A stretch of 64,000 nucleotides of DNA, from contig CM046344.1 of assembly GCA_025403435.1 (NCBI GenBank), positions 23,320,047-23,384,046 on the forward strand, given 5' to 3'. The stretch comes from Artocarpus heterophyllus. Its lineage: Eukaryota; Streptophyta; Magnoliopsida; Rosales; Moraceae. Position numbers and translations under genes: made by a program. Shown in pieces: positions 7,763 through 64,000 of this stretch. The notes beneath the pieces were generated by a model. It was not told the origin of the DNA. It ran no database searches and was given only the letters and a program-made list of their open reading frames with translations. Positions within the stretch are counted from its first letter, which is position 1. Every line of letters begins with the position of its first letter.

Positions 7763-7777
7763 GATAAAAGTAAAACC

Positions 7778-19991: not shown

Positions 19992-19999
19992 TATAAATA
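19992..19999 (+). promoter_or_regulatory. TATA box of the Copia LTR
   Basis: TATAAATA in TTTCTATAAATAGGGAG. It is conserved at 28267-28274, 30265-30272 and 30837-30844 in the other LTR copies. Transcription should start about 30 nt downstream, giving a U3 of about 1.6 kb. Confidence 0.75.
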
Positions 20000-20398
20000 G
20001 GGAGTGATTCTCACAAGTTACTAAGATCAATTGAGAGATTAAGAGTGATACTCTGCTAAGTGAGATTAAAAAAAAAACTCCCTGACAACTTTTGTTCACA
20101 TATCATGAACACTTGCTTTGGGTTCTCTCGATTGGTTGGAAGGAGAGTCACCGATGGAAGAGCTGTACGTGTGAGCCCACACTCACTCCGGTCGTGGATA
20201 GAGAATAGTAAAGAAGACCAGTTGGTTGAGGTTCTTTTGGAACGTTACTTCTCTACACGCATTACGGAGGTTCTTCTGCAAACAAAGGTTAGTAAGATTT
20301 GGTTAATTTATACATATAGCATGTCAAACTTGTGTTTTAAAAATTACTCTGATATAATTTTTTTTAAAAATTCCGCTGCACACTCTGATTCCAACAAT

Positions 20399-26127: not shown

Positions 26128-26132
26128 TGACT

Positions 26133-26620
26133 CCTCTAGGATATACTGATTCAGATTTTCAATCCTGTCTGGATTTTAGGAAATTGACTTCAGGTTTTGT
26201 GTTTACTCTAGACAACGGTGCCATTAGTCAGAGAAGTGCTAAGCAAGATTGCACTTCGGATTCAACGATGGAGGCCGAGTATGTGGTAGCTAGTGATGCT
26301 TCGAAAGAAGCAGTGTGGCTCCGCAAGTTCCTTGGGGATCTTGAGGTTATTCCTAGCATGGATAAGGCGGTATCAATGTACTGTGATAACAGTGCGGCGG
26401 TAGCTAATGCTAAGGAACCAAGATTTCACAAGAAGAGTAAGCATATTGATCGGAAGTATAACGTGATACAAGAATTCGTTGAGGGCTGGCATGTCACAGT
26501 GTGCAAGATCACGTCAAAAGACAATTTAGCTGATCCATTTACGAAGACACTTACTGGGAGAGTCTTCGAGAGGCATGTGGAAGCTATGGGGATGCGAGAT
26601 TTGTCATATTTACTCACTTA
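26133..26620 (+). pseudogene. Copia RNase H
   Basis: Continues the Copia pol after the foreign insert: DSDFQSCLDFRKLTSGFVF, then SDSTMEAEYVVASDASKEAVW, MYCDNSAAVANAKEPRFH, KSKHIDRKY and DNLADPFTK. The segment itself is open to the stop before the PPT and closely matches 400-857. It is separated from RT by the insert, so no full Pol can be made. Confidence 0.9.
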
Positions 26621-26624
26621 GTAC

Positions 26625-26635
26625 AAGTGGGATAT
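26625..26635 (+). other. Polypurine tract of the nested Copia element
   Basis: AAGTGGGATAT directly before the 3' LTR start TGTTAG at 26636. Confidence 0.7.
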
Positions 26636-31241: not shown

Positions 31242-31246
31242 GACAC

Positions 31247-34870: not shown

Positions 34871-34913
34871 GCTTTTGAGATGAATTCTAATTTTGAGGAC
34901 GAAAGTTCCTTTT

Positions 34914-34925
34914 AGGGGTGGAGAG
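34914..34925 (+). other. Polypurine tract of the plus-strand chromovirus
   Basis: AGGGGTGGAGAG precedes the 3' LTR. It is identical to the tract of the minus-strand chromovirus. Confidence 0.8.
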
Positions 34926-38461: not shown

Positions 38462-38610
38462 TGCCGTTAGAGAAAATGCCCGCTAGGATTAGTGTCTTAC
38501 AGTAAGATACATAAAATGTATTTTTGACATTTTAGATCGATAAAGTTTATTCTTTCATGTACCAATGATCTTAATTTGCTTTAATTTTGTTGATTATATG
38601 ACAAGGGACC

Positions 38611-40576
38611 TGTAACACCCCTATGTGGGGGTTAACAGTTTTAAATAAATAAAAATAATTTTAAATTTTATATTATTTAAATCAATTAAACAATGCCCAT
38701 GGGTCTTTAAACAACAAGAAAAATAAAAATAAACGTTTTAAATACAAACCACAGTTTTTAGTGTAGCACCAAATATATATAATTACAGTCATCATCACCA
38801 TAGTACAATTCCCAAATAACTTAACACAGCCATAAAAAAAAATAATACAACTCTTACATGTTGTAGATAAGCTGTAATTAAACAGGGTCTTCTAACACGA
38901 AAACAGCAGGATTGTTTTCGTTTATTCCTCTTCAAATATGTTGCACTGAGTTCCACCTGAGATATGAAGATATGATAGGGATGAGCATCGACATGCCCAG
39001 TAGGGAAATCATGACTCACCTTATGGTTTATCCATTACCACATTAAAAACTGCATGGTTAGTAGGTTACATCATATTCCAGATTATGAGGTTTATTATGA
39101 TCACATCTTATGGATACCGTAGTTAATCATTACCAAGTGTCATAATTACACATTTATACAAATATTACCAATCATCATTGTTCCTAGGTATCCATGTTAA
39201 ATTGAGTATCACTCAACTCATCGAAACCCAAATGGGCGCACTTGATCACCCCATAAACATTCCAAGGGTGTTCCGGTGAGGGGACATCAAGCCCCGAGTC
39301 CTCACCAAATCAATTCCTGTACAGTGTGTTTTGGGACTTTCAACCCAAGGAAGCGTCATCACCTTCCCCCTATTTTACCTTTTTGGGTATTCATGCCCAA
39401 GGACGTAACCGCCGCCCTCTTCATGTCTCACCATTTCTCTATATTAAATCATTATTAATAGAGTCAGTTTTCCTAACCATGCTTCTCAATTTATAACATG
39501 TGTCAATTCATTATGTTCCTCGCCGTACAATACAAGACGAGTCCATGTCATAGTTTCATATGTGATAATCATATAATATCAGTTCAACATAGATATATAT
39601 ATATTGCGGCAAAACAATCAATTTTAATTCTATAAAAACCTCACAAAAATGAGTAATAGAATCCCTACCTTTCAAGCTTATCAACAATCTTTTAATCCTG
39701 GAATTAATTAACGTTAGCTCCACACATCCTTGACCCTAAGGCATGCATAAGGACAATTAAAACTAAAGCACAACGTATAATCACATTCATAAGTGAGTTA
39801 AGTGTAAACCCGTCTACTAGTGCCATTAAAGTATTTTTATGCATTAAACATGGAGAAAATGCATACTAAAAACTAAGTTTAGATTAAAGAAAACCTACCT
39901 CAAAACTTCTTTGAAAAGCACCAAAGTTTGGGTTATCAATCAAGCTTGAATTAACTTTAAAACCGCCTCGATCATCGTTGGGAATTATAATTGTCTTGGC
40001 CACAAAGAGAGCTTTGTGCTCTATGTCTTTAGTTAGAAATTTGAAGTGAGAAGGGAGAGAATGAGAACTAGAGAAGAAGGTGGTGATAGTTAAATAAAAA
40101 GATATCAAAATGCTTAAGAGGAATGAGATGTTTACGGGGAAAAGTTGTAAGAAGAAACAAAAGAGTCTTAAAGGAAAATATCATCTTGTCTCCCATGAAG
40201 ACTTTTAGCAAATAATGCCAACATAATTGAGGGGATAATTGGAGTGAATTATAGAAGAAGATAAGGAAATAATTAATTAGGTGGTTGAGAAATATCTCCA
40301 TGTCTTCTATGAATTGACGGAAAATAATTCAATGTCCCCTTCGGATACCTTTAGCAAAATGAGAAGAAGTCTATATAATTGAGCAATAATTTAGGGAGAC
40401 AAGATTGGTAGAAGTAAGTGTTGGTAAGTTTTGAATGTTTCTTAGGAAGACTTGGTAAGAAAATACTAAAATGGTATTTTTTTTAAATGATCATAAACAA
40501 CTTAGTAATTTTAAATAGTCACATTTTATTCATTAAATTTTACAAAATTATGCCCGTTAAAAATACGGGTGTTACA
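38611..40576 (-). mobile_element. Solo LTR related to the LOG-carrying element
   Basis: TGTAACACCCCTATGTGGGG at one end and ACGGGTGTTACA at the other, 1966 bp, flanked by perfect TSDs GGACC (38606-38610 and 40577-40581). The centre (39050-39720) is closely similar to the LTRs at 55113 and 61866, so it belongs to the same family. Orientation is inferred from that match. The short ORFs inside are shadows. Confidence 0.92.
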
Positions 40577-40755
40577 GGACCAAAGCTATAATACTATTGA
40601 TTGCAAAATCTTGATTCGCACATATATGCATTTATGTGTAGAAAGATGTGATTAAATGATAATAATCGAAATATATGTAATTTGCAATTTGTGGAACGAA
40701 GGTGAGCACTTTGTCATTCTTAAGATTGTAAGTTCCTATTTTCAATAAAAGAGAC

Positions 40756-42965
40756 TGTCACGCCCCGGAGTACGGGAGGTGATGTGGCGGAATATTTAGA
40801 TTAATTAAAAGCGGATTTAATTAAAATTAAGTGTTTAAGAATCCAATTAAGTAAGAAATAAAGAGATTTTCCACCACATTTGATAAACGAATTTATAAAT
40901 ATTTAGCAAATAATAATAATTAAATAAAAACCGCGAATATGGGTTCCACAACCCACAACTTGTGCACACACATGGTTCTGACAATATCACAAATACAATT
41001 ACAGTCCAAGTACAAATATGGTTAAGTCTTACATGCCCTGATTAATAATACAGAATATAAATAAACTCTCCTATTGCTCCTGAGTTCGATCTGAAGAATC
41101 TTCTCCAAACCTAAATGGAAGACCACCTAGATGGGGGAAATTTAAAACAATAAAACGTGAGCGAAAGGCTCAGTGGAACTATGTTTTATAAAAATAGTTT
41201 AACGCAAAGGAACACAGCATTATTAGAAGTTATTCAAAGGAAACTTAAATAAATAAATAGATAAACAATTTGAGTAGAACCGTCCTGACACAGAACAGTC
41301 TACTCGTCAAATCAAAACACCAATTTACTTTTACCTAGGCAAACCATGAAATCACCACCGTAGTGGCCCAGCTGGGTTTCGGGACCTGCCCCCAAGGTCG
41401 ATCGCTACACGACCCGATCTCTAATATGGCATCATGCCTTAGTGTTTATTATCATTGTCATTCAAAACCCAATTACCGAGTGTTGTCAGTTACATTTATT
41501 ATGAAGTTCATTTCATAATCACGGTATATTAAAATATAACCGATAAAACCATTTTCAAACAACCGTTGAAAACATTTTGATAGAAATCATTTTCAAAGCC
41601 AAATCATTTCAAAACCAGGCTACCAAAGAAATAGGATAGAAGTCCTACCTCAATACTCGTGCCAGTACCCCACACCGTAATCCCGGTCCGCTATACGTTA
41701 GCTCCACGGAACCACGAACGATCCTAGATACAAACTAAGTCGATCAATATCTAGTTCGAGACATTCTATGTTACTAAATCATTTCATGATGTCCTAGTGT
41801 GCCATTTGTACCTTTAAAATCATCCTATAAGGTTGGGATTTAAATCAGGGTTCAAAACAGTGAAAACGGGTAAAAATCACAAAATTTTCCATGCCTCGGT
41901 CGGCCTGCCGGACGCCCTGCTTTGGCCTGCCGGACGCCCTGCTTCGGCCTGCCGGACGCCCTGCTTCGGCCTGCCGAACTGCACAGTTTGGCCTGCCGGA
42001 AACAAGGTTCGGCCTGCCGAACATTTCTCCAGATTCGGCCTGCCGGTCGGAAGAACACCGGCCTGCCGATCATCACTCCGGCCTGCCGAACATGAACTTC
42101 GGCCTGCCGAACTGGGAAAACCCAGAAATCCCAGCCACGGGTTTCTCGATCCCCAAAATCCAAATCTTGTTTCTAACCTATTTTTCTCAAATCCCAGGCA
42201 TGAAAAACAACTATAGTTGATAGAAAAACATTCTAGAACATGTTTGGAATCATTTAAACAACATTTAAACTCAAAATCCTCAAAAATCCGAAAATGAGAA
42301 AAAGAGGAGAAAAATGAAAAATCTTGAATCCAATCCGTTTTTCTTCAATCTAGGCTTAGATTCTAGTTGTTCTAAGTTCATTTAACACAAATCCACAGTT
42401 TTCTAAGCTTAAACAAACTTAGATTTCAAAAACACACAAAATTGAAAATTTTGTAAAAAGTTTAGAAATTTCGAATCTAACCTCGAATCGAAGCTTCAAT
42501 CCGCGTTCTCGGTTGCCGAATCACGTCCCCGAGCTTCCTCCTCGCTAACCCGAAGCTTGGATTCGAATGTGGTTTCAAAATTTGTGAAGAAATTAGAGAG
42601 AGAGAGAGACTGCCGAGAGATCAAGAAAGAGAAGAGAGAGAGTGAAACCGGGAGAGAATGAGAGGAGAGAGAGAGGAAGGAAATAAATAGAGAAAATCGG
42701 TGGGCGGTTTTACTGTGCGAAAACCATGTGCCGCCCACGGTTTTCCAAAACGGAGTATTTTTAACATTTTACAAATTGTAGTGTTTTAAAACTCAAAACA
42801 TCATTTTAAAACAATAAGAAATCCTTCGAATTCATTAATTTAACAAAACAACCAAAAATTCAAAAATCCAACCAAATAGTCTAATAAATGTTAAAACTTT
42901 AATTATGGCACACTAATTCATCATTTATATTACACTTAACATTAAATAAATTTCGGGACGTTACA
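40756..42965 (-). repeat. 3' LTR of the minus-strand chromovirus
   Basis: 2210 bp, reading TGTAACGTCCCG to GGCGTGACA on the minus strand. Holds ten GGCCTGCCG units (41903-42112), a GA-rich tract (42594-42680) and an 8-bp inverted repeat GTGGGCGG / CCGCCCAC (42700-42738). Confidence 0.94.
41903..42112 (-). repeat. Array of ten TCGGCCTGCCGA-like units, chromovirus LTR copy 1
   Basis: Ten GGCCTGCCG cores spaced about 22 nt; many are full TTCGGCCTGCCGAA palindrome-like units. The first three belong to exact 22-bp tandem repeats containing GGACGCCCTGCTTCGGCCTG. The translated Gly-Leu-Pro-rich ORFs over this region are repeat artefacts. Confidence 0.9.
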
Positions 42966-42966
42966 A

Positions 42967-42978
42967 CTCTCCACCCCT
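42967..42978 (-). other. Polypurine tract of the minus-strand chromovirus
   Basis: AGGGGTGGAGAG on the minus strand, next to the 3' LTR. Just upstream in element sense is an inverted repeat AAATTTCG / CGAAATTT (42984-43003). Confidence 0.82.
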
Positions 42979-43013
42979 AAAAGAAATTTCGTCCTCGAAA
43001 TTTACAACTCATC

Positions 43014-43586
43014 TCAAAAACAAAACAAATGCGGATACAATTCCCGCATACTCGACTCTAACTCCCAAGTGGCTTCATCAATCCCATGATGCTGCCACAT
43101 GACCTTTACCAACGGTATCTCACGACGACGCAAGCTAATCACTTTCCGGTCGATAATCTGAATCGGCACTTCTTCGTACGTCGTATCCTCCTGAACCTGT
43201 ACATCGCGAAACGAAACTATCTTATCCTGCCCAGGTGGACATTTTCTAAGCATCGACACATGAAGTTCGGGCGGAAGATCAAGCCGATAAGCGACCACAC
43301 CAACTCGCTGAGTGATCCCGAACGGCCCAATATACCTCGGCGCGAGCTTCCCACTCACTCCGAACCGCATAGTTCCCTTATGAGGTGACACCCTCAAGAG
43401 AACAAAATCTCCAACCGCGAACTCTAAGGGTCTACGTCTCCTATCTGTGTAGCTCTTCTGCCGACTCTGAGCTGCTCTCAACCGATCCCAAATCACAGCG
43501 ACTTTCTCGTTGCTGTCACGAATCTCATCTGGCCCAAGAATAACTCTATCTTCCGGCTCGGCCCAACACACAGGTGACCGACACGG
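43014..43586 (-). pseudogene. Chromovirus integrase C-terminus and chromodomain-like tail
   Basis: An open segment ending HLFCF at 43014. It contains EFAVGDFVLLRVSPHKG and RYIGPFGITQRVG, the GPY/F module of Gypsy integrases. A chromodomain-like end follows (IIDRKVISLRRREIPLVKV, then MWQHHGIDEATWELE), which in chromoviruses guides integration into chromatin. It is separated from the integrase core by a TGA stop at 43587-43589, where the context predicts Arg (LYG*PCRSPVCW), consistent with CGA to TGA deamination. Confidence 0.88.
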
Positions 43587-44994
43587 TCACCCATACAACG
43601 CCTCAAATGGTGCCATACCGATACTCGCCTGATAACTGTTGTTGTACGCGAACTCCGCCAAATGCAAACATTGCTTCCAATTCCCGCCGAAGTCCAACGC
43701 ACAAGCACGCAACATATCCTCGAGAACTTGAATAACCTGCTGAGACTGCCCATCCTTCTGAGGATGAAACGCCGTACTGAAGTTCAAATCCGTACCCAAA
43801 GCCTCCTGAAAACTCCTCCAGTACTTAGCATTAAACCTGGTGTCTCGATCAGAGGTGATGGATAAAGGAACTCCATGCAACCTCACAATGTTCTGCATAT
43901 ACAACTCCCCGTGAATCTTCCTAGAACACGTCGACCTAAACGGAATGAAATGCGTCGATTTCGTCAACCTGTCGACCACAACCCAAACTACATCATGCCG
44001 CTGCTCCGTCCTCGGCAAACCTGTGAGGAAATCCATCGTCACATGCTCCCATTTCCACCCTGGAATAGGAAGCGGCTGAAGCTGACCTGTAGGCTTCTGA
44101 TGCTCAGCTTTCACCTGGAGACACGTCGAACACTTGGCCACGTACTCTCGAACATCTTTCTTCATGCCTCTCCACCAGTATTGTCTCTTCAAATCACGAT
44201 ACATCTTGGTGCTCCCCGGATGAATAGCAAACTGAGACCTATGAGCTTCATCTAGAACGGCTTTCGTCACCTCGGCGATAACTGGAACTGCAAGACTCTC
44301 CTGGAAGTACAACGATCCATCAGCAAGCACGCTCCATTCTTCAAACTGCTCCTCGTTCTGAATCTGTGACCAAATCCCCTGCAAATGCTGATCCTGCCAC
44401 TGGCTTTGGTTCACCATCTGAACAAGAGCTGGAGTCGCTTCCACATGATATAACGAAACACGATCACCATCTTCACGATACAGTAGCCGATACTCACTCA
44501 CTGTCGCATCCCTGCTCCAGTCCTCAAAAATCAAACAAGCGAGAACCCCTGAAGACTTCCTGCTAAGCGCATCCGCGACTACATTAGCCTTCCCGGGATG
44601 ATACTGCAACGCAAAATCATAATCCTCCATGTACTCTACCCATCTGCGCTGCCTCAGATTAAGATCCCTCTGAGTGAACAAATACCTCAAACTCTTGTGA
44701 TCAGAGAAGACCTGAAACGATGCTCCATACAAGTAACATCTCCAAATCTTCAGCGCGTAGATCACCGCTGCAAGCTCTAAATCGTGAGTAGGATAATTCC
44801 GCTCGTGAGGTCGTAGCTGTCTCGATCTGTACGCAACTACACATCCATGCTGCATCAACACGCATCCAAGTCCACGCCCTGAAGCATCAGCATAAACCTC
44901 ATACGGCTCGTCACTACTAGGAATAACTAATACTGGAGCTGAAGTCAACTGGTTCTTCAATTCCTGAAAAGCAAGCTCACAATCTTCATCCCAC
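43587..44994 (-). pseudogene. Chromovirus RNase H and integrase core
   Basis: The longest open piece of this pol (from 44960, 457 aa). RNase H comes first: YADASGRGLGCVLMQ, DLELAAVIYALKIWR, FSDHKSLRYLF and the ADALSRK end. Then the integrase zinc site H-H-C-C (HRSQFAIHPGSTKMY, KCSTCLQVKAEH) and the catalytic core with Asp in TMDFLTGLP and Asp in SITSDRDTRF. The third catalytic acid is missing: where relatives have Glu, this copy reads DGQSQQVIQVLEDML (Gln). It ends in a stop at the LYG position. Integrase is therefore inactive on two grounds. Confidence 0.9.
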
Positions 44995-45303
44995 TCAAAC
45001 CTGACATTTTTTCTTGATCAATCTCGTCAACGGAGCTGCAATCTTCGAAAAATCCTTTACAAATTTCTTATAATATCCAGCAAGACCTAAGAAGCTGCGA
45101 ATCTCCGCTACATTCCTTGGTCGTTCCCACTCCAATATAGCTTCAATCTTGGATGGATCCACTGAAATACCATGCTCCGAGATGACATGACCCAGAAACT
45201 TGACCTCAGTCAACCAGAACTCACATTTTTCCCTCTTAGCATACAACCGGTGCTCCCGCAGAGTCTGAAGCATGATCCGAAGATGCTGCTCATGCTCCTC
45301 CTA
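44995..45303 (-). pseudogene. Chromovirus RT thumb/connection segment
   Basis: Reads [40 protein letters not shown] and [20 protein letters not shown], then loses frame in the A-rich codons after LTRLIKK near 45005 (single-base indel). It is joined to the RT palm segment only across a stop. Confidence 0.88.
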
Positions 45304-45555
45304 TGTCTTAGAATACACAAGAATATCATCGATGAACACGATCACAAACTGATCCAGATACGGCCTAAATACCCTGTTCATCAGATCCATAAAAGCTGCT
45401 GGAGCATTTGTCAATCCAAAAGACATGACCAGAAACTCGAAGTGCCCATACCGAATCCTAAAAGCTGTCTTGGGAATATCCTCTTCCTTGATCCTGAGCT
45501 GATGATAACCTAAACGCAAGTCAATCTTCGAGAAGTATCGCGAACCTCCCAACTA
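45301..45555 (-). pseudogene. Chromovirus RT palm segment with active site
   Basis: [39 protein letters not shown] and the catalytic [15 protein letters not shown]. It is bounded by TAG stops at 45553-45555 (Gln expected after LFD) and 45301-45303 (Trp expected before EEHEQHL). Confidence 0.9.
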
Positions 45556-46700
45556 ATCAAATAGCTCATCAATCCTAGGCAAGGGATACTTGTTCTTAAC
45601 CGTAACACGATTCAGCTGTAGATAGTCCACACATAACCTGAGAGTCCCATCGTGCTTCTTAGCAAACAAAACAGGTGCTCCCCACGGAGATGTGCTATTC
45701 CGAATATATCCTTTATCAGCAAGCTCCTGAAGGTGCTTCCTCAATTCCTTCATTTCTGCCGGCGCCATCCGATAAGGTGCCATAGAAATCGGTGATGTCC
45801 CTGGAAACAACTCGATACCAAACTCAATCTCCCGATGCGGTGGTAATCCTGGCAACTCGTCGGGGAAGACATCCTCGAACTCATCAACCACCGGAATCAC
45901 TACACTACCTTTCGAAACATAGGGCTCGCAATCTAGATTGGCAAGAAAAGCAAAACAATCTAGATTCCTTCGCCCTCCTAAACACGACTTTATAAGGCGC
46001 TCACTCATTAGCCAATCACCACCACCCTGGTAAGTGATTACCGTCCCCCTATCAGACACTAGGGTCACTTTTCTAAGTTGGCAGTCCACAACTGCACTAT
46101 ACTTGGACAACCAGTCCATCCCTAAAATCACATCATAGGAACTCATGGGGAGTATAATCAAATCATTTTTCAAAATCTCATGCCCAATCTTTATTTTACA
46201 TGATTTACACATACAATTCACACACACCCGCCCCAAGGGAGAAGTTATGACTAGGGGTTCCTTAAACTCTTCTACTTCTAATCCCAAGGCATGTACAAAA
46301 GAACTCGAAATGAGAGAATGAGAGGCACCGGTATCAAATAAAACACGAGCTAAAGATCTGGAAACCAAAATCATACCATCGATAACCGCGTTACCAATCT
46401 GAGAATCTGACCCTCCAGATGCCATTGCATGAACCTGCACTGGCGCTTTCCCTTTTCCTCTACCAACATTACTGGGTCCTTGGATTACTCGGTCGATGCT
46501 GTTGAGATGGAGACGATTGCACACTACTGTACTCGGTGCTCTATACTGAGGAACACTGCGCTGAAAATACTGCGGCTGCTGCCCTCGTACCGGATGTGAG
46601 AATTGCTGAGGAGAAAACTGCAGGATACTGCAGCTGCGGGTACTGCGGAGGCAGAGGTAGGGTCTGAGGCTGAGGCTGAGATGAACGACTGGCATCCTCC
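45553..46700 (-). pseudogene. Chromovirus protease and RT N-terminus
   Basis: The protease keeps its catalytic motif ([17 protein letters not shown]) and an intact [15 protein letters not shown] flap region. Then the linker [20 protein letters not shown] and RT fingers ([20 protein letters not shown]), ending at the TAG in LFD*LGG. The same frame stays open upstream to 47343, but that upstream part is a shadow of gag; the frame change near 46700 marks the gag-pol junction or a frameshift lesion. Confidence 0.88.
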
Positions 46701-46705
46701 CCGGT

Positions 46706-47587
46706 CTACGATCCAAGACGAGCACTCCTGATTGGGCAATTCCTCTTGATGTGTCTGGGCTGCTGACAGAAATGACAATGAAAGCTGTAGGGATTGCTGC
46801 GCCCGCTGCCAGACGAACTGCTGCTGCCACTGGTCGCACCGCCTTGCTTGCCTTTCCCCGGAGCTGGACGACTACTAATGCTCTTCCTGCCACTCCTCTG
46901 CGGTCCTCCGGAAGCCTTGGCTCGGTCCTCACAATACTGCACATAATCATTCTCCACGGAGATCGCCGACGACACAAGCTCTCCGAAACCCCTAAGCCGT
47001 AGGGCAACCAACTGCCGCCGAATAGGAGCCTTGAGTCCCTCCTGAAACTTGATGCATTTCTCGCGCTCCGATGCCACAACTGATGGAGCAAATCTAGCCA
47101 ACTCGGTAAACTTTGCCTCATACTCCCGAACTGATAGATCACCCTGCTGCAATCTATAAAACTCAGTTGCCTTCTGGTCTCTATACCCCTGTGGAAAATA
47201 CCGATCATAGAACAGCTCCTCGAACTTGTCCCAACCGATATCGCCACCGCGCTCCAGACGCTTAGTTTGTTTCCACTAGGTGTCGGCGCCACCCTCGAGC
47301 TTATACGCCGCAAACTCCACACGATACTCCTTAGGCACACCAAGAGTATCTAGATGCTTCAAGATCGAATCCAACCAATATTCTGCTAACTGCGGATCCC
47401 CATTGCCATCAAAAGTCGGAATAGACGCCCGTCAGAATTCCTTAAAGAAAGCATGCCGACTACCAACACTGGAGTCTTCTGGTCTAGCCCTGGCTGCCAT
47501 CTGCCGAAAAGCTGCAAACATAGACCTCATCATGCTCTCATCATTTCTGAACTCGGCATCAGCAGTCGAACGACGTCTAGGTGCCAT
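46706..47587 (-). pseudogene. Chromovirus gag
   Basis: Starts at ATG 47587 (MAPRRRSTADAEFRNDESMM). It has [18 protein letters not shown] and [20 protein letters not shown], a Ser/Gly-rich linker, and a complete CX2CX4HX4C zinc knuckle ([14 protein letters not shown], near 46740-46790). Two stops break it, one in KEF*RAS near 47431-47436 and one near 47278 (T*WKQTKR, TGG to TAG). From 47152 onward the frame is open. Structural RNA-packaging protein, defective as it stands. Confidence 0.9.
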
Positions 47588-47676
47588 TCTCTCACTTCTG
47601 AAAACAAAATTTAGACTGTCAGAGGTATTTCATTGTCAACCTATGTGTGCACAATTCCCAAGGTTCATAACCTTGA

Positions 47677-47688
47677 GCTCTGATACCA
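47677..47688 (-). other. Primer binding site (tRNA-iMet) of the minus-strand chromovirus
   Basis: Minus strand TGGTATCAGAGC, a perfect initiator-Met complement, three nt inside the 5' LTR. A hairpin CAAGGTT-ATG-AACCTTG (47659-47675) follows in element sense. Confidence 0.93.
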
Positions 47689-47691
47689 TTC

Positions 47692-49884
47692 TGTCACGCC
47701 TCGGAGTACGGGAGGTGATGTGACGGAATATTTAGATTAATTAAAAGCAGATTTAATTAAAATTAAGTGTTTAAGAATCCAATTAAGTAAGAAATAAAGA
47801 GATTTTCCACCACATTTGATAAACGAATTTATAAATATTTAGCAAATAATAATAATTAAATAAAAACCACGAATATGGGTTCCACAACCCACAACTTGTG
47901 CACACACATGGTTCTGACAATATCACAAATACAATTACAGTCCAAGTACAAATATGGTTAAGTCTTACATGCCCTGATTAATAATACAGAATATAAATAA
48001 ACTCTCCTATTGCTCCTGAGTTCGATCCGAAGAATCTTCTCCAAACCTAAATGGAAGACCACCTAGATGGGGGAAATTTAAAACAATAAAACGTGAGCGA
48101 AAGGCTCAGTGGAACTATGTTTTATAAAAATAGTTTAACGCAAAGGAACACAGCATTATTAGAAGTTATTCAAAGGAAACTTAAATAAATAAATAGATAA
48201 ACAATTTGAGTAGAACCGTCCTGACACAGAACAGTCTACTCGTCAAATCAAAAAACCAATTTACTTTTACCTAGGCAAACCATGAAATCACCACCGTAGT
48301 GGCCCAGCTGGGTTTCGGGACCTGCCCCCAAGGTCGATCGCTACACGACCCGATCTCTAATATGGCATCATGCCTTAGTGTTTATTATCATTGTCATTCA
48401 AAACCCAATTACCGAGTGTTGTCAGTTACATTTATTATGAAGTTCATTTCATAATCACGGTATATTAAAATATAACCGATAAAACCATTTTCAAACAACC
48501 GTTGAAAACATTTTGATAGAAATCATTTTCAAAGCCAAATCATTTCAAAACCAGGCTACCAAAGAAATAGGATAGAAGTCCTACCTCAATACTCGTGCCG
48601 GTACCCCACACCGTAATCCCGGTCCGCTATACGTTAGCTCCACGGAACCACGAACGATCCTAGATACAAACTAAGTCGATCAATATCTAGTTCGAGACAT
48701 TCTATGTTACTAAATCATTTCATGATGTCCTAGTGTGCCATTTGTACCTTTAAAATCATCCTATAAGGTTGGGATTTAAATCAGGGTTCAAAACAGTGAA
48801 AACGGGTAAAAATCACAAAATTTTCCATGCCTTGGTCGGCTTGCTGGACGCCCTGCTTCGGCCTGCCGGACGCCCTGCTTCGGCCTGCCGAACTGCACAG
48901 TTCGGCCTGCCGGAAACAAGGTTCGGCCTGCCGAACATTTCTCCAGATTCGGCCTGCCAGTCGGAAGAACACCGGCCTGCCGATCATCACTCCGGCCTGC
49001 CGAACATGAACTTCGGCCTGCCGAACTGGGAAAACCCAGAAATCCCAGCCACTGGTTTCTCGATCCCCAAAATCCAAATCTTGTTTCTAACCTGTTTTTC
49101 TCAAATCCCAGGCATGAAAAACAACTATAGTTGATAGAAAAACATTCTAGAACATGTTTGGAATCATTTAAACAACATTTAAACTCAAAATCCTCAAAAA
49201 TCCTGAAAATGAGAAAAAGAGGAGAAAAATGAAAAATCTTGAATCCAATCCGTTTTTCTTCAATCTAGGCTTAGATTCTAGTTGTTCTAAGTTCATTTAA
49301 CACAAATCCACGGTTTTCTAAGCTTAAACAAACTTAGATTTCAAAAACACACAAAATTGAAAATTTTGTAAAAAGTTTAGAAATTTCGAATCTAACCTCG
49401 AATCGAAGCTTCAATCCGCGTTCTCGGTTGCCGAATCACGTCCCCGAGCTTCCTCCTCGCTAACCCGAAGCTTGGATTCGAATGTGGTTTCAAAATTTGT
49501 GAAGAAATTAGAGAGAGAGAGAGACTGCCGAGAGATCAAGAAAGAGAAGAGAGAGAGAGAGTGAAACCGGGAGAGAATGAGAGGAGAGAGAGAGGAAGGA
49601 AATAAATAGAGAAAATCGGTGGGCGGTTTTACTGTGCGAAAACCATGTGCCGCCCACGGTTTTCCAAAACGGAGTATTTTTAACATTTTACAAATTGTAG
49701 TGTTTTAAAACTCAAAACATCATTTTAAAACAATAAGAAATCCTTCGAATTCATTAATTTAACAAAACAACCAAAAATTCAAAAATCCAACCAAATAGTC
49801 TAATAAATGTTAAAACTTTAATTATGGCACACTAATTCATCATTTATATTACACTTAACATTAAATAAATTTCGGGACGTTACA
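47692..49884 (-). repeat. 5' LTR of the minus-strand chromovirus
   Basis: 2193 bp. It differs from the 3' LTR by one fewer 22-bp unit in the palindrome array, a 4-bp longer GA run near 49550, and scattered substitutions. Confidence 0.94.
48834..49027 (-). repeat. Array of nine TCGGCCTGCCGA-like units, chromovirus LTR copy 2
   Basis: Eight good GGCCTGCC cores plus one degenerate GGCTTGCTGG at the left edge. One 22-bp unit is missing relative to 41903-42112. Confidence 0.9.
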
Positions 49885-54366: not shown

Positions 54367-55112
54367 TGTGACGTCCCAGAAAAGGGGTCTGGGAGTTTTA
54401 GGTAAATAAGATAAACTAACCGAGGTAAATAAAGAAAAAGTAAATAAATATACGTAGAAAATAAATAAATATCATCAAAAATAAATAATAACATCGGCAG
54501 TCACCATCATGTGATTGCCACGAAGTGGGGTCGAGACCTTATTCTCATTCACCATCAGTAAGTAAATAAAATACAATTATCATCAATAATAATAATAATA
54601 TAAGAATACTAAAAATCATCGTCTTTGAAATAAATGACGTGGTGGGACTCACAAAGACGAAAATGACATCAACAGCGACATTGGGACAAGTCGTACAGGA
54701 CACGCATCATACCACAGTTCCATAGAAAATACCATTCCTATCCAAAGAGCCAGGTTTCGATCCCAGGCCCATCTTTCCTTCTCAAACCTAGAAGGGGAAT
54801 TTTTTTTTTTAAAAAAAAACAAGAAAACGTGAGCGGAAGGCTCAGTAGGATAATTAGTTAAAAACAAGTTATTTAAAAATGGTAATCAAAAATAGAGAAT
54901 TGTTCATAAATCGTTCTAATTGAAATAAATCTCAAAGTCTTAACAAATCAATAAAAACACTTACTTGAAAGCAAATTGATAAAACATCACCGTACGGGTT
55001 TTGAAAATCCGAAAGAAATATCAAAATACAATTCTTCAAAATCAAAGGTAGAAATCATTTTCATCAATCATTCAAAGGGTCAAGCATTTGGCCAAAATAG
55101 TTTAAAAGGGGC
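54367..55112 (-). repeat. Gypsy LTR fragment, host of the LOG-carrying element
   Basis: Starts TGTGACGTCCCAGAAAAGG. It contains ACGTGAGCGGAAGGCTCAGT (54828-54847), a box shared with the chromovirus LTRs (41156 and 48092). It is cut at 55112 by the next element; its continuation should lie beyond the window. Confidence 0.65.
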
Positions 55113-57473
55113 TGTAACGCCCCTATATGGGGGTTAACAGTTTTTAATGAGATAAAATAAAAATAAATAATAAAAGTAAAACCTTAAAGATTAAAATTTG
55201 CCCGGGACTTAAATGAAAACTCTCAACTCAAAAATAAAAATATAAACGACAAATAAACCACAGTTTTAATGTAGCACCTTAAATTTAATAATATAAACTG
55301 TTGTCATCATCATTTTAACCCTCAACACATTATAATACAGTCACAGAAAGTAACAATTGATGCTTACATTATCATGAAGAACATTCTCAACGATTGAAGC
55401 AGTCCCAATGTAATATAGCTACATCACTTCATCAACTATATTTCTCGTAGCCACCTCACACTTAGTGAGTCCTGAAAAGATAAAAATATAAGGGTATGAG
55501 CAACACTATGCTCAGTAGAGAAAGCCATTACTCACCTTCAGGTTTTTATCATTACCACATTAAAATCTGCATGGTTAGTAAGTCACATCATATTCCAGAT
55601 TATGAGGTTTATTATGATCACATCTTATGGATACCGTAGTTAATCATTACCAAGTGTCATAATTACACATTTATACAAATATTACCAATCATCATTGTTC
55701 CTAGGTATCCATGTTAAATTGAGTATCACTCAACTCATCGAAACCCAAATGGGCGCACTTGATCACCCTATAAACATTCCAAGGGTGTTCCGGTGAGGGG
55801 ACATCAAGCCCCGAGTCCTCACCAAATCGATTCCTGTACAGTGTGTTCTGGGACTTTCAACCCAAGGAAGCGTCATCGCCTTCCCCCTACTTTACCTTTT
55901 AGGGTATTCATGCCCAAGGACGTAACCGTCGCCCTTTTCATGTCTCACAATTTCTCTATATTAAATCATTATTAATAGAGTTAATTTTCCTAACCATGCT
56001 TCTCAATTTATAACATGTGTCAATTCATTATGTTCCTCGCCGTACAATACAAGACGAGTCCATGTCATAGTTTCATATGTGATACACATATAATATCAGT
56101 TCAACATAGATATATATATTGCGGCAAAACAATCAATTTTAATTCTATAAAAACCTCACAAAAGATGAGTAATAGAATCCCTACCTTTCAAGCTTATCAA
56201 CAATCTTTTAATCCTGGAATCAGTTAACGTTAGCTCCATACTCCCTTGATCCTAAGGCGTGCATAAGGACAATTAAAACTAAAGCACAACATACAACTAC
56301 ATTCATAAATAAATCATGTGTAAACTTATCTTACTAGTATGCCATTAAAGCTTTTATATAAATCTCTTTCGAATACCACAGTAAACAATTTTTGTCTTAA
56401 CACAATATAAAATGTGAACAAGTAATCTATATGTTTTAGTCCCTAATAAGATTCATCAATCACTTAGGATAATATTGGAAAGGTTGCAAGACATTAAAGA
56501 ATTAGGTGGTGAGCAAAGATGGGTTCTTGGTTCAGGTTAGCAGCTGGTATACCATAACAAACTGGCAGATTTACTAGTTTCCAATACAAAAATTGAATAA
56601 TTCTTAGAAAATAAAATACAACTCCGATTTAGGTTTATGATAGCTCGTTAGAAAGCCTAGGATGCTACTTTTCAAATATGCAAACCAATTCATAAAATTC
56701 ATTTTAATTTAATCTTAGAATTTCAAGAAATAACCACTGCCCATAGAGGTATTACAAAGTTTAACAATATAAATTTTCTGTCTAGGGCATATACACTTAG
56801 ACTTCATACATATGCTCCAAAATAGCAACAAACATATACTTAGGTTTAAGAACGCAAATTTGAATAATCCTTTAGTATAAAAGAAAATTTATAAATGAAA
56901 GACTAAATTTGTTCATAAGATTCTAACCTCGGATTATGGTTAGTTGGAAGCTTGAAATGGCTTCAAAACAGGTTCCTTTACTTCGGTATGACTGAAATTC
57001 TTGCTCAAATGGAGGTGATGGTGGCTGATTTTTATGGCTGCCTTGAAGAAGTTCTCTAAGTATTTTGCTTCAGCAAAGAAATGAGAAGAAGAGTGTGGGA
57101 ACCGTGGAAGAGAAAGGAAGAAAAGATGAAGTCTTTGAAGAGAAGTGATGGAAACAATTATAGAGGAGACATGTTGAAGCATGTCACGGAGGAAATAAAG
57201 AAAATGAGGGTCAAGAGTAGTTGGAAAAGATATCCTTATGTCTCATCTAAAGACTTTAACACACATAATGCCAATATGACATTTTTGAGATTTATTAGAA
57301 GTTCTAAGGCTTTTTAGTAATCATACTAAATAAATATAGGAGAATTTTAGAAAATTTAAAAATAGATAAAAATAAATATTATAAAATAAATTTAAATGAA
57401 GCAATTTTTTTTTTATACATTAAAAATTAATTTAATTACCTCAATACCCGTTAGAAGAATAACGGGTGTCACA
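55113..57473 (-). repeat. 3' LTR of the LOG-carrying element
   Basis: 2361 bp. In element sense TGTGACACCCG to GGGGCGTTACA. The ORFs within (55793-55975, 56940-57182) recur exactly in the other LTR and have no recognised domain. Confidence 0.93.
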
Positions 57474-57474
57474 G

Positions 57475-57487
57475 CTCTACCCCCCTT
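57475..57487 (-). other. Polypurine tract of the LOG-carrying element
   Basis: Minus strand AAGGGGGGTAGAG, two bases from the 3' LTR. Just upstream in element sense is a 9-bp inverted repeat GAAATTTCG-4-CGAAATTTC (57491-57512), also present in the chromovirus. Confidence 0.85.
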
Positions 57488-57512
57488 AAAGAAATTTCGT
57501 CCTCGAAATTTC

Positions 57513-58428
57513 AATTCTAGCAATACTAGTAAAAATTATGATTCCACTATGATTCCAATTCTGAGTCTAAACCGTTAATGTTGTTTGTCCTCCAAATTTA
57601 AGTTATCGTATCTCCACTTATCCCCTTGCATAATAAATCTTACTCCTAAATCCCTCAATGAGAGTATTTCTGACAAGTTTCAACTTATAACACCGTATAA
57701 TAGTCTAAGAATCTGATCAGGCATACATATTGACCATATCATGATTCCAGTCCTTCATTGTCCATGGACTGTGATTTACAATCACATTTAAGGAGATTGC
57801 CAGAGAAATTTTATATACTTCATCTTTAGGTTCCTTTTCCTTTTTGAGTAAGGAAAAGTCAAATATATTTGATTTCATACCTCAACTAATAAACTAAAAC
57901 ATAATCATAAAACATATATCACAAACACTTTTATTCAAAACTATACATTAAACTTACTCATAGAGATATTAAACGGAATCTCAGAGTTGCAAACATACCC
58001 GACATATTTTTCATTAAACAGCTATCCTCATGACACAAAAATTCAACCCAAATAATATACTCATATTTCATATGGAATATCCCCATAACTGACTCTGGTA
58101 CTTCCACATAATATTAACAGAATATTACACATTACAAACATAATACGGATACGTTTCGAGAGTACAAGGCACTCCGTATACCAGCTATCCATATCATGCA
58201 TGCTTATAGGATACAAAAACATCGATAAACAAAAGATCGGACCTTAAGAAGGATGCGTTTCGAGAGCATCAAGTACTCCGTATCCAGCCATCCCGGCATT
58301 AGGCTCAATGAATCTAAAAGATTGAACAACAACGTACCACAAGAAACACAGAATACAAGGCAAACGGTTATTCGTAACACACGAAATACGGACACACATG
58401 CCTACATGCCAAAGATAAAACAAAAAGA
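57513..58428 (-). other. Non-coding stretch between LOG-like ORF and 3' LTR
   Basis: About 0.9 kb without a recognised ORF. It includes an imperfect direct repeat of about 44 bp: 58147-58190 and 58251-58293, sharing CGTTTCGAGAG and ACTCCGTAT cores. Probably the 3' untranslated part of the LOG-like transcript. Confidence 0.6.
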
Positions 58429-59079
58429 TTACAGATGGAGATTCAAATCAATTGGCCGCTCTCGGCTTTCCCTTTCCCATTCAAGCTTGGATGTTGCAGT
58501 GTCGGATTCTGGATGTATGATTTGCATTTTATCTATCAATTCCTCAGCTGTTGAAGCAGTGACAAAGATTTGTCTCTCCGATTCTGTAGTGATGTTTTCT
58601 TCCACAGCGTAATCTAGAAATTTTAAAAGACCGTCATAAAAACCCTTTACGTTCAGCAGTCCCAAAGGTTTGGAATAAAAGCCCAACAATTGCCCACAAG
58701 CAACTATAAATATTTCCTCAAGAGTACCTAGACCACCAGGTAATGCTATAAAAGCATCAGAATTATAGATTATGTCTTTAAAATTTTTAGGGATACTCCT
58801 GACTCCTTCTCCCTTACCTATGGCTTCCTTACAAAGGTTTCCTTCAACTGGAATATGAGGCCAAATTCTTACATCAGTAGCGTCGCTAGACCTAGCTGCT
58901 AGTGCCATATTTACCATCATTTTTATACTACCACCCCCATAGATTATGTTAATCTTCTTGTGTGCTAGGACTTGCCCTAAGTGATTTGCAGCTTCTAAAT
59001 AAGCTTTATCTTTTCCAAGGCTGGAACCACAAAAGACACAAACATTCTTTATTTTCTTCGTGGACTGGGAGGTAAACAT
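58429..59079 (-). CDS. LOG-like: LOG-like protein (cytokinin riboside 5'-monophosphate phosphoribohydrolase family) inside an LTR retrotransposon
   Basis: LOG enzymes release active cytokinin bases from their riboside monophosphates. The 216-aa product has the family length and Rossmann layout: VCVFCGSS (13-20), IIYGGGSI (45-52), SDAFIALPGGLGTLEE (107-122, containing the PGGxGTxxE signature with its catalytic Glu region), then KPLGLLNVKGFYDGLLKFLD and SKLEWE near the end. Divergences: the Arg-Lys pair normally found eight and seven residues before SDAF reads Asn-Phe, and the glycine after GGGSI is Lys. Activity is therefore uncertain. The C-terminus ends DLNLHL, an LxLxL (EAR-like) motif. It is intronless, unlike ordinary plant LOG genes, which fits capture from a spliced RNA. 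Start: ATG 59079 begins a normal-length protein; the frame extends to 59118 but only with a GTG there. It lies on the element sense strand, so the LTR promoter can drive it. Confidence 0.9.
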   Translation of the reverse strand: MFTSQSTKKIKNVCVFCGSSLGKDKAYLEAANHLGQVLAHKKINIIYGGGSIKMMVNMALAARSSDATDVRIWPHIPVEGNLCKEAIGKGEGVRSIPKNFKDIIYNSDAFIALPGGLGTLEEIFIVACGQLLGFYSKPLGLLNVKGFYDGLLKFLDYAVEENITTESERQIFVTASTAEELIDKMQIIHPESDTATSKLEWERESRERPIDLNLHL

Positions 59080-59812
59080 ATTTGGTTTATAGAAGTGGTT
59101 GCTTAATGTCTGCTCCACTTAGACTTCGGGTTCTATATGAGATTTTAAAGATGAGAAATATACAAAAAGGGCTAAAGAGATAGACGAGTAGGTAATGAAA
59201 AGGTAATCCAAAGATTTAAACAAAATCTTGTGCGGATAAGAAAGTAAGATAAGGTGATTGATAGTTTTCAGAAAATCTGATTCACTTTTTGAAAAAGATT
59301 AGACTCTAATTGTATAACTTTTGACAATTGAGAACAATTCGACAGAAGACCCTCATGACACAACTGTAGACTTTTTGACAAATATACACCAAGTCTAGAA
59401 ATTTAATATAAACGACAAATACTGTAGAACTTTTGAAATTTGAGACACAAATCTTGAAATATCTGGATAAGCTTTTCAAAATTCAAACATATTACTGTAC
59501 CGTATGTAACGTGTCTGATAAGATAATATATTTTATTATATATATATTTAAGAAAATCATAAATTAAATAAGATATTAACACTTACTGTATCAATCTAAT
59601 AATCACAATTATTTCAAACACAAAAGCAAATATTCTGAGTAAAAGAAAAACACAAACTGTTGAACATCAGCTAAAACTGCTTCAAATAAGTAAAGACTAA
59701 ATAACCTTTATAGTGCGATGACTTATTCCCCATCCAGTTTTCTTATGGCTTGGCAAACAGGATCTAGAAATACCATATTCCTGAGGCGTTGTCTTTCTGT
59801 ATAAAATTTAGG
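59080..59812 (-). other. Spacer between the two ORFs of the LOG-carrying element
   Basis: AT-rich, about 0.73 kb. No ORF or recognised motif. It could contain a splice site or promoter that separates the two coding units; none is convincing by eye. Confidence 0.5.
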
Positions 59813-60244
59813 TCAGAGTTTAAAAATAGCTCCTTGAACATATCCACTAGGGTGACCGTGGAGAGGAGGATGGATGCTATCCAAGTTCTCCTTTGAAAGT
59901 CCATCCCTACAAAACCTTATTTTATCCTCTCTATTCGTAGACATATAACCAGGTGAAGTACATTTACCGTTACAATTTTGTCTTCCACATTTGTTACAAG
60001 TGACCACGATGGCACGAGCTCTTCTTTTCATTGCACTACGACTGGTACCTGTTCCTGGTAAACCGACATCTTGACTAAAGTCACTCGGACGGATTTTCCC
60101 CTCTATCAACATTCTCACATCACAAGGGATACCAAAACGCATAAGAATCCACAACCGAGTAATTCTAGCCTTGTATTTCTTTCTGAGAATCTTTTGGGAG
60201 AGTGATGGGAAATACTTTCTCAGGTGTTGGTACTTTGGGTCCAT
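59813..60244 (-). CDS. Basic cysteine-rich protein, resembles carlavirus-type nucleic-acid-binding proteins
   Basis: Intact 143-aa ORF from ATG 60244 in element sense. Seen: a Lys/Arg-rich N-terminus (to about residue 30); a hydrophobic segment with a Pro-x-Asp-Val (residues 40-43); a GTGTS turn (64-68); a basic MKRRARA stretch (72-78) that could be a nuclear signal; then a CX2CX4CX3C zinc-binding-like cluster (Cys 83, 86, 91, 95). PGYMSTN and a downstream FCRDGL follow. Known: this order (helix, Gly-Thr-Gly, Arg-rich motif, four-Cys finger, Pro-Gly) is that of the small cysteine-rich proteins of carlaviruses and relatives, which bind nucleic acid and suppress RNA silencing. Inference: it may be a captured viral gene. 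Alternative: a degenerate Gag nucleocapsid or an unknown plant protein. No membrane segment or signal peptide is evident. Confidence 0.6.
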   Translation of the reverse strand: MDPKYQHLRKYFPSLSQKILRKKYKARITRLWILMRFGIPCDVRMLIEGKIRPSDFSQDVGLPGTGTSRSAMKRRARAIVVTCNKCGRQNCNGKCTSPGYMSTNREDKIRFCRDGLSKENLDSIHPPLHGHPSGYVQGAIFKL

Positions 60245-61846
60245 GATGAGATGAAAGAAGAGTAAATAGAAAGGAAAAATTAAGATAGTAAATTACAGAA
60301 TCCTAGAATTCCTTCTTCTTTTAGAGGAAAAGAAGAATTTTTTAATGAAAAAGAAGAGGATTTGCGATTTAGAGAGAAAATAACAAATTAAGAGAGAAAA
60401 AGTGAACTCGGAGAAATAAGCTCCTATGCACAGTAAACGTATATGTAAACAATAATTAAACCACTGTATATGACACGTATAGAGACCACGTGGGAGAGAC
60501 AGTGTGAATCAAACTGATTTAAGATTTGAACTAGGCCCAAATGTTCTAAGTTGAAAATGGTCAGGTTGTTTCGGGCCTTAACACATTTAGAACAAGTTAA
60601 ATAACAAACATAAAATTGAAAACCAATTTGTATAAATCTTAAACCCAATTTAAAGCCCACTATAGATAAAGTTAATTATGAACAACAAATCTAATTTAAC
60701 GACAACAAGGATCTTCCTGAATGATATTTAAAATCATTTCATAACAACATAATCTTCCAGCAACTCGAATAATTTTGTTTTAATCAAAACCTTATTGAAC
60801 AATACATACACCCATATGTTATTCATAATACTTAACATCTATCAATGGATTCATCATCATTGCTACCAAGGGTTTAGAATGTGACTAACCTTGAAATCAA
60901 TACGATTTACGTCTTTCAACGTAGACCATATCAACGAACAAAGACACTTGATGTTACTACTTAAGAACATCTACAATCCTCACAATTCTACTTATACAAT
61001 ATATAATTTCCTCATATAACAAAACCTTAGGTAACCAAAAGATTCACATCTAAACATCTAAAACTTAAACATTTTATCGTAATTATCCAAAATTATTATA
61101 AGTGCCTTAAGTATTATGATTTACTTAAGGAAACTCCTATTGATCATTTTTCTATTGCATCTATATATAAAGATTCACTGATACACTTAAATACAATGTA
61201 CGTAACAAAATATTCCAATTTTGAGATTCATGCATTCTAGACTTTACACAGTCTCAACAGACCAAAAGTCTAACATTTATCTCTCTCAAGATTCAATACC
61301 ATGATTCCCAACTTATATCATATTCCTCAAATAAATAGAACTTTTAAGAAAAGATATTGACACTTATGTGTTCCATCGAATCCACACATAATCATTACTT
61401 AGGTTTGAATCAATTACGAAAAATTTGGCATATCTATGTCAAACTTTAAAATCAATAAATCAAGCCTTATATTTCTTATTGTTTTTCACGAGACAAAAGG
61501 CTCTTAAATCCTCGTATCTATATGAATTTCTCATCGTTTATACGAATTAAATATGCTTATAGATCCAAATATTATACGAATCTCTCATAAGCATTCTACT
61601 TATAAACTCATTCCATATAATTATCATTCCCTCATAACTATTAATACTTTCCTTCTATATAATTATTGTACTCATATAACCATTAGTATTTTCATTCTAT
61701 GGCCTTTCCATGTTACATCCTTCTAGACTGTATAAATCAATGTGAAGGTTCATTTTGATGATGACAATGAAAATTCAGCTTCAAAACCATCTCAAAAATA
61801 TATTTTTTTAAAGTGGTGCTACACTCCCTAGGTTAACCGAACCTAG
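60245..61846 (-). other. Leader of the LOG-carrying element
   Basis: About 1.6 kb between PBS and first ORF. A hairpin CCTAGGTT-5-AACCTAGG (61827-61847) directly follows the PBS in element sense. Otherwise no ORF with a recognised domain; length and AT-richness resemble retrotransposon leaders. Confidence 0.6.
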
Positions 61847-61858
61847 GCTCTGATACCA
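61847..61858 (-). other. Primer binding site (tRNA-iMet) of the LOG-carrying element
   Basis: Minus strand TGGTATCAGAGC, an exact initiator-Met complement, seven nt from the 5' LTR. Confidence 0.93.
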
Positions 61859-61865
61859 AAAATTC

Positions 61866-64000
61866 TGTAACGCCCCTATATGGGGGTTAACAGTTTTTAA
61901 TGAGATAAAATAAAAATAAATAATAAAAGTAAAACCTTAAAGATTAAAATTTGCCCGGGACTTAAATGAAAACTCTCAACTCAAAAATAAAAATATAAAC
62001 GACAAATAAACCACAGTTTTAATGTAGCACCTTAAATTTAATAATATAAACTGTTGTCATCATCATTTTAACCCTCAACACATTATAATACAGTCACAGA
62101 AAGTAACAATTGATGCTTACATTATCATGAAGAACATTCTCAACGATTGAAGCAGTCCCAATGTAATATAGCTACATCACTTCATCAACTATATTTCTCG
62201 TAGCCACCTCACACTTAGTGAGTCCTGAAAAGATAAAAATATAAGGGTATGAGCAACACTATGCTCAGTAGAGAAAGCCATTACTCACCTTCAGGTTTTT
62301 ATCATTACCACATTAAAATCTGCATGGTTAGTAAGTCACATCATATTCCAGATTATGAGGTTTATTATGATCACATCTTATGGATACCGTAGTTAATCAT
62401 TACCAAGTGTCATAATTACACATTTATACAAATATTACCAATCATCATTGTTCCTAGGTATCCATGTTAAATTGAGTATCACTCAACTCATCGAAACCCA
62501 AATGGGCGCACTTGATCACCCTATAAACATTCCAAGGGTGTTCCGGTGAGGGGACATCAAGCCCCGAGTCCTCACCAAATCGATTCCTGTACAGTGTGTT
62601 CTGGGACTTTCAACCCAAGGAAGCGTCATCGCCTTCCCCCTACTTTACCTTTTAGGGTATTCATGCCCAAGGACGTAACCGTCGCCCTTTTCATGTCTCA
62701 CAATTTCTCTATATTAAATCATTATTAATAGAGTTAATTTTCCTAACCATGCTTCTCAATTTATAACATGTGTCAATTCATTATGTTCCTCGCCGTACAA
62801 TACAAGACGAGTCCATGTCATAGTTTCATATGTGATACACATATAATATCAGTTCAACATAGATATATATATATTGCGGCAAAACAATCAATTTTAATTC
62901 TATAAAAACCTCACAAAAGATGAGTAATAGAATCCCTACCTTTCAAGCTTATCAACAATCTTTTAATCCTGGAATCAGTTAACGTTAGCTCCATACTCCC
63001 TTGATCCTAAGGCGTGCATAAGGACAATTAAAACTAAAGCACAACATACAACTACATTCATAAATAAATCATGTGTAAACTTATCTTACTAGTATGCCAT
63101 TAAAGCTTTTATATAAATCTCTTTCGAATACCACAGTAAACAATTTTTGTCTTAACACAATATAAAATGTGAACAAGTAATCTATATGTTTTAGTCCCTA
63201 ATAAGATTCATCAATCACTTAGGATAATATTGGAAAGGTTGCAAGACATTAAAGAATTAGGTGGTGAGCAAAGATGGGTTCTTGGTTCAGGTTAGCAGCT
63301 GGTATACCATAACAAACTGGCAGATTTACTAGTTTCCAATACAAAAATTGAATAATTCTTAGAAAATAAAATACAACTCCGATTTAGGTTTATGATAGCT
63401 CGTTAGAAAGCCTAGGATGCTACTTTTCAAATATGCAAACCAATTCATAAAATTCATTTTAATTTAATCTTAGAATTTCAAGAAATAACCACTGCCCATA
63501 GAGGTATTACAAAGTTTAACAATATAAATTTTCTGTCTAGGGCATATACACTTAGACTTCATACATATGCTCCAAAATAGCAACAAACATATACTTAGGT
63601 TTAAGAACGCAAATTTGAATAATCCTTTAGTATAAAAGAAAATTTATAAATGAAAGACTAAATTTGTTCATAAGATTCTAACCTCGGATTATGGTTAGTT
63701 GGAAGCTTGAAATGGCTTCAAAACAGGTTCCTTTACTTCGGTATGACTGAAATTCTTGCTCAAATGGAGGTGATGGTGGCTGATTTTTATGGCTGCCTTG
63801 AAGAAGTTCTCTAAGTATTTTGCTTCAGCAAAGAAATGAGAAGAAGAGTGTGGGAACCGTGGAAGAGAAAGGAAGAAAAGATGAAGTCTTTGAAGAGAAG
63901 TGATGGAAACAATTATAGAGGAGACATGTTGAAGCATGTCACGGAGGAAATAAAGAAAATGAGGGTCAAGAGTAGTTGGAAAAGATATCCTTATGTCTCA
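61866..64000 (-). repeat. 5' LTR of the LOG-carrying element (truncated by window end)
   Basis: Matches 55113-57245 apart from a 2-bp AT expansion near 62863. The last about 230 bp lie outside the window, so the element's start site and right TSD cannot be checked here. Confidence 0.93.

Follow-up and report, generated by a model that had tools for sequence, protein, structure and literature searches.

LOG domains in plant LTR retrotransposons

Domains of the LONELY GUY (LOG) family have been met before in plant long terminal repeat (LTR) retrotransposons: in a screen of 121 angiosperm genomes, Gypsy consensuses from Citrus sinensis and C. clementina were seen to contain YgdH, a domain described in LONELY GUY proteins, as were Gypsy elements of Populus trichocarpa when the copy filter was not applied (PMC9289625). 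The same study credits Steinbauerova et al. 2011 with an earlier report of LOG/YgdH in LTR elements, and states that additional conserved domains rarely become fixed in the LTR elements of plants (PMC9289625). Here we describe an LTR retrotransposon with a LOG-family gene in a 64,000-nucleotide stretch of Artocarpus heterophyllus DNA (assembly GCA_025403435.1, contig CM046344.1, forward-strand positions 23,320,047 to 23,384,046; hereafter the window, numbered from its first letter). This element has near-identical LTRs, a primer binding site (PBS), a polypurine tract (PPT), no detectable gag-pol and two open reading frames (ORFs) in sense, one of which codes for a LOG-family protein that retains its frame, its length and the phosphate-binding motif but in which neither the catalytic Arg nor the proposed prenyl pocket survives.

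The LOG cargo is of a type already known, and the element is an unusual variant of it rather than a first; the initial annotation of this DNA, which knew of no described element with such a cargo, has to be corrected in this respect. Steinbauerova et al. 2011 (Genetica) reportedly found similarity to LOGL4 in two Athila-like elements. Within the accessible literature, which leaves most subscription papers uncovered, we found neither a gag-pol-less element combining LOG with a second ORF nor a case of an element-borne LOG deprived of its active site.

A young LTR retrotransposon without detectable gag-pol

The element occupies the final ~9 kb of the window on the minus strand, an orientation absent from the initial annotation and set by the PBS and PPT signals, and both ORFs lie in sense (Table 1). 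Its LTRs are direct repeats with TG...CA ends, the far end of the copy that starts at 61866 lying beyond the window, and the PBS and PPT adjoin them; we take the PBS to be of the tRNA-iMet type. In a local alignment of the two LTRs there are 0 substitutions in 2133 aligned bases, and the single difference is a 2-bp indel in an AT repeat (56110/62863). At substitution rates of 1.3e-8, 7e-9 and 2.5e-9 per site per year, the absence of changes over 2133 sites gives 95% upper bounds on the age of the element of ~54, 100 and 281 thousand years, respectively. No Rfam family matched at gathering scores within 55113-64000.

The interior between the LTRs measures 4.39 kb, and its DNA matches no other part of the window except at the flank of the PPT, for which blastn returned 42967-43007 (90%) and 34882-34925 (82%). 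A tblastn comparison of this interior with seven protein pieces of the window's Ty3 and copia elements gave nothing better than E 0.76; within the detection afforded by these pieces, gag-pol is absent, as in a large retrotransposon derivative (LARD) or another non-autonomous element. Thus, the initial annotation of a very recent LTR retrotransposon that keeps its PBS and PPT and lacks gag-pol is borne out. A complete gypsy element at 40756-49884 has the same PPT flank, AAATTTCGAGGACGAAATTTCTTT, and begins its PBS with the same 12 nt, so that a Ty3/gypsy element of this kind is a plausible partner.

A LOG-family protein with an altered active site

Both ORFs, which had been recognized as intact from the outset, carry a coding signature. 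The frame of the LOG-family ORF extends from stop to stop over 58429-59118 (229 aa), and an open frame of at least 229 codons arose in 0 of 1000 first-order Markov sequences matched to the interior in length and composition; its codon-position asymmetry lies above all 708 of 708 overlapping background windows presumed non-coding. For the second ORF (hereafter ORF2), a frame of at least 159 codons arose in 4 of 1000 such sequences, and the asymmetry is above 785 of 786 background windows. An additional frame of 127 codons (58229-58612, plus strand) lies, with about half of its own length, antisense to the LOG-family ORF and has no Pfam match.

The family assignment of the first protein is given by matches to PF03641 (8.9e-22), TIGR00730 (7e-38) and the PDB entry 2a33 of AtLOG3 (2.6e-43), together with the PGGxGTxxE motif. 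It is 40.5% identical to AtLOG3 in an ungapped alignment over 200 residues, 34.0% to LOG8 (1ydh) and 39.3% to the bacterial LOG 5zbj, which is presumably the P. aeruginosa protein. In the LOG of C. glutamicum, Arg99 and Glu122 are catalytic, whereas Met96, His97, Lys100, Glu125 and Trp129 form the proposed prenyl pocket (PMC4979012), and a review calls the catalytic Arg and Glu fully conserved in LOGs (PMC8234997). When these positions are mapped by motif spacing, R99, M96, H97, K100, E125 and W129 are found to be replaced by N, I, P, F, I and G, respectively, with E121 and E122 kept; thus, one of the two catalytic residues remains (the Glu, the Arg having become Asn) and none of the five residues of the prenyl pocket.

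Of the 52 columns that are invariant in LOG3, LOG8, 5zbj and YvdD, the protein of the element keeps 31, and these are unevenly spread: 11 of 13 within residues 24-62, 3 of 16 within 63-118 and 17 of 23 within 119-200. The middle block thus differs from the rest (3/16 versus 28/36; Fisher p=1.2e-4, with block limits chosen post hoc). A compensated double frameshift behind this block was considered and rejected, the in-frame score of 58 being reached by 0 of 200 shuffles as against 161 and 126 of 200 for the other two frames. The pattern of retained and lost positions fits selection for the fold and the phosphate-binding loop and not for cytokinin activation, and, judged from the residues, a pseudoenzyme is a likelier product than an enzyme that activates cytokinin. 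Moreover, a difference of ~59% from LOG3 without a stop or an indel speaks for long selection on the frame, be it before or after capture. The ORF shows no intron-like break, and plant LOG genes contain introns, which points to capture from an mRNA. Scans for its relatives gave 3 pattern matches in viral_contigs and 19 in genome_contigs, 0 of them confirmed, a result that says little given the few exact 8-residue words and the non-plant nature of these collections.

Probable mobilization in trans and repurposing of the LOG

We propose, with a probability of roughly 0.7, that this is a recently inserted non-autonomous (LARD-like) element of the Ty3/gypsy type that is mobilized in trans, and in which a LOG captured long ago has been kept and repurposed as a pseudoenzyme, with ORF2 as an accessory gene. 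The element would be transcribed from its own LTR, and would then be packaged, reverse-transcribed and integrated in trans by the gag-pol of a Ty3/gypsy partner sharing its PBS and PPT context, for example one of the 40756-49884 type. The LOG gene would have entered long ago as a processed mRNA and been maintained thereafter as a gene of the element, its product possibly acting as a LOG-fold pseudoenzyme, either by binding nucleotides or as a non-productive dimer partner of the host LOG; that of ORF2 may be a nucleic-acid-binding accessory protein. The two proteins could serve the element or could be hitchhikers. Within the interior, 43 ATGs precede ORF2 and another 6 lie between it and the LOG-family ORF, so that translation of the latter, downstream frame would probably need splicing or internal initiation. 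If the LOG frame is indeed selected without its catalytic residues in a gag-pol-less element, then selection for accessory functions can act on parasites of parasites, and the LOG fold would seem to have a use that is not enzymatic.

Several points weigh against this proposal. The element was seen as a single copy, and its LOG frame could have been preserved in a divergent gene of the host until a recent capture. A hydrolase activity of another kind could still reside in the altered active site, and the single-sequence structure model of the protein (mean predicted local distance difference test score, pLDDT, 39.3) is too poor for a fold search. A chromovirus (Tekay-like) partner or origin, suggested by a likeness of the PPT and PBS, is a guess, and in the C-terminal piece of the gypsy element at 40756-49884 no Pfam chromodomain was found at E 0.001, SH3_Tf2-1 being found there instead. 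As tRNA-Met PBSs are also frequent, accounting for 39% of the elements in one study (PMC6317226), the lineage of the LOG-bearing element is not proven. Finally, the prenyl pocket is itself an inference of the paper that proposed it, and a mycobacterial LOG likewise departs from it (PMC4979012); hence, more weight falls on the replacement of the Arg than on that of the pocket residues.

Alternative explanations

A recent chance capture, whereby a divergent host LOG-like mRNA was transduced shortly before insertion and the ORFs, having no role in the element, will decay, appears rather unlikely to us. Captured genes are common in LTR elements, with 672 in rice and 1343 in sorghum, and those of rice are in their majority under non-purifying selection, though sorghum has a higher share under purifying selection (PMC3726574). 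With LTRs that lack substitutions, any decay after insertion would not show yet. However, this scenario requires a host LOG family devoid of the MHxRK motif, and we know of none. The presence of two separate coding ORFs and the absence of residual gag-pol suggest a longer history, and the recurrence of LOG domains in LTR elements of Citrus and Populus (PMC9289625) also speaks against a chance event.

An origin of ORF2 from the nucleic-acid-binding protein of a plant RNA virus (of the Viral_NABP/Carla_C4 type), deployed by the element as a silencing suppressor, is doubtful to a similar degree, and its kinship with these proteins is a lead and not a finding. In a Pfam search with the whole protein, the top two matches, Viral_NABP (E 0.0068) and Carla_C4 (E 0.063), are both viral families of this kind and cover the same stretch (63-118), and 0 of 20 control sequences (9 full shuffles, 10 local shuffles and 1 reversal) match either of them. 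Yet both scores fall short of the curated cut-offs (16.8 versus 23 bits and 13.7 versus 20.9 bits, respectively), 4 of the 20 controls match some family (best E 0.011), and MCM_OB comes close with E 0.066 on the whole protein and overtakes Carla_C4 in the 91-aa core (0.029 as against 0.61). In the carlavirus cysteine-rich protein, as seen in jasmine virus C, a basic patch is followed by a C-x2-C-x12-C-x4-C finger (PMC8839810); ORF2 shares this layout, with a basic patch directly before its Cys motif, but its spacing is C-x2-C-x4-C-x3-C instead.

The N-terminal 64 aa of ORF2 have no Pfam match, which also tells against a viral source. A scan of viral_contigs for the carlavirus-type motif returned 6 contigs by motif match alone, and a scan for relatives of ORF2 by exact 8-residue words found none there, which, given the few such words and a collection that is not one of plant genomes, says little. 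The single-sequence structure model of ORF2 (mean pLDDT 41.6) is too poor for a fold search. The unrelated KduD dehydrogenase model of NCBIfam scores 4.7e-4 on ORF2, a further caution against reading much into the viral matches; both KduD and eL37 were set aside as probable chance matches.

In the initial annotation the element was thought to spread an active LOG, raising cytokinin where it is expressed and thereby favoring its own transmission. We regard this as improbable. The intact frame, the ungapped match to LOG proteins, the scores above cut-off for PF03641 and TIGR00730 and the intact PGGxGTxEE motif would suit a functional enzyme, but the claim of a working hormone-metabolism gene runs up against the replacement of the catalytic Arg and of all five proposed prenyl-site residues. 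In the C. glutamicum LOG, alanine at the tested AMP-binding or catalytic residues, S19A excepted, nearly abolishes activity (PMC4979012). The score against the NCBIfam LOG equivalog, 85.5 versus a cut-off of 300, points the same way, although this model may be tuned to bacterial LOGs.

Just as speculative is the notion that gag-pol was replaced by a two-gene, plant-virus-like kit, in which a small, basic zinc protein of the flexivirus NABP type would counter silencing and a dead LOG would interfere with host LOG through dimerization or bind nucleotides, both being selected and copied by the machinery of another element. That ORF2 is a decayed gag nucleocapsid is the least probable of all, since its C-x2-C-G-x3-C-x3-C looks like a CCHC zinc knuckle by eye but the protein has no significant similarity to the gag of the window's gypsy element (188 of 500 shuffles score as high) and no Pfam gag or zf-CCHC match.

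Other features of the window

The window also holds a solo LTR from a related subfamily of the same broad family. A block of ~870 bp in it is 93% identical to the LTR of the LOG-bearing element, the remainder being more diverged and gapped, and this mosaic similarity suggests recombination between co-packaged subfamilies. Both the solo LTR and the complete gypsy element are bounded by 5-bp target-site duplications (TSDs). In the latter, long open frames are present on both strands in both LTR copies (41818-42344, 48754-49264), probably for compositional reasons.

Elsewhere, a ~2-kb repeat recurs in several copies that are roughly 85-95% alike and partly in tandem (388-2932, 18383-20396, 26128-31243); the frames at 423-857 and 2646-3092 have no Pfam match. 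A copia-type Pol_BBD domain is found by Pfam at 22227-22982. At 7763-9069 lies a host gene whose two Myb domains (PF00249) are read in different frames, probably as exons, and which resembles DIVARICATA-type MYBs.

Table 1. Coordinates of the LOG-bearing element and of related features in the window
Feature	Position	Strand	Description and evidence
LTR (3' LTR in sense orientation)	55113-57473	-	2361 bp, TGTAACGC...GTGTCACA; direct repeat with 61866-64000
LTR (5' LTR in sense orientation)	61866-64000	-	Direct repeat; clipped by the window end, expected end 64228 if of equal length (extrapolated)
Primer binding site	61846-61858	-	Sense TGGTATCAGAGCC; 7 nt after the 5' LTR; initial 12 nt shared with gypsy 40756-49884
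Polypurine tract	57474-57489	-	Sense TTAAGGGGGGTAGAGC; directly adjoins the 3' LTR
PPT-flanking motif	57490-57511	-	AAATTTCGAGGACGAAATTTCT; identical in gypsy 40756-49884, similar next to another window repeat
LOG-family ORF	58429-59079	-	216 aa from the first ATG (59079); PGGxGTxEE kept; catalytic MHxRK replaced by IPKNF
ORF2	59813-60244	-	143 aa from ATG (159 codons stop to stop); basic patch, then C-x2-C-x4-C-x3-C; best Pfam matches below cut-off
Left flank GGGGC	55108-55112	.	Candidate target-site duplication; partner position beyond the window (past 64000)
Complete gypsy element	40756-49884	-	LTRs 98.1% identical; TSD GAGAC; gag, RNase H and integrase zinc-binding domains over several frames
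Solo LTR, related subfamily	38611-40576	-	Perfect TSD GGACC (38606-38610, 40577-40581)

Comparison with known systems

What remains unusual in the Artocarpus element is the combination of a missing gag-pol, an intact but catalytically broken LOG and an additional basic, Cys-rich ORF. With the LOG/YgdH elements of Citrus and Populus it shares a LOG-family gene inside a Ty3/gypsy-type LTR element; those, however, were located via their reverse transcriptase and hence carry pol, whereas here pol is undetectable and a second ORF is present. It resembles the LARD-type elements in its long LTRs, its PBS and PPT, its long interior without gag-pol and its presumed movement in trans. Unlike LARDs as usually described, whose interiors are non-coding, it has two coding-like ORFs.

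Phalaenopsis, too, has Ty3/gypsy elements whose accessory gene belongs to a known enzyme family, in this case that of an AlkB m6A demethylase, likewise carried by flexiviruses; in contrast to the present case, these elements are 25 kb long and were located via the reverse transcriptase, and their enzyme is active in vitro (PMC9289625). Lastly, Bs1 and other transducing LTR elements of plants similarly contain host gene sequence, usually in sense (PMC7264820; PMC3726574), but the ORF of the Artocarpus element differs from these in extending over the LOG protein from start codon to stop codon and in its strong divergence.

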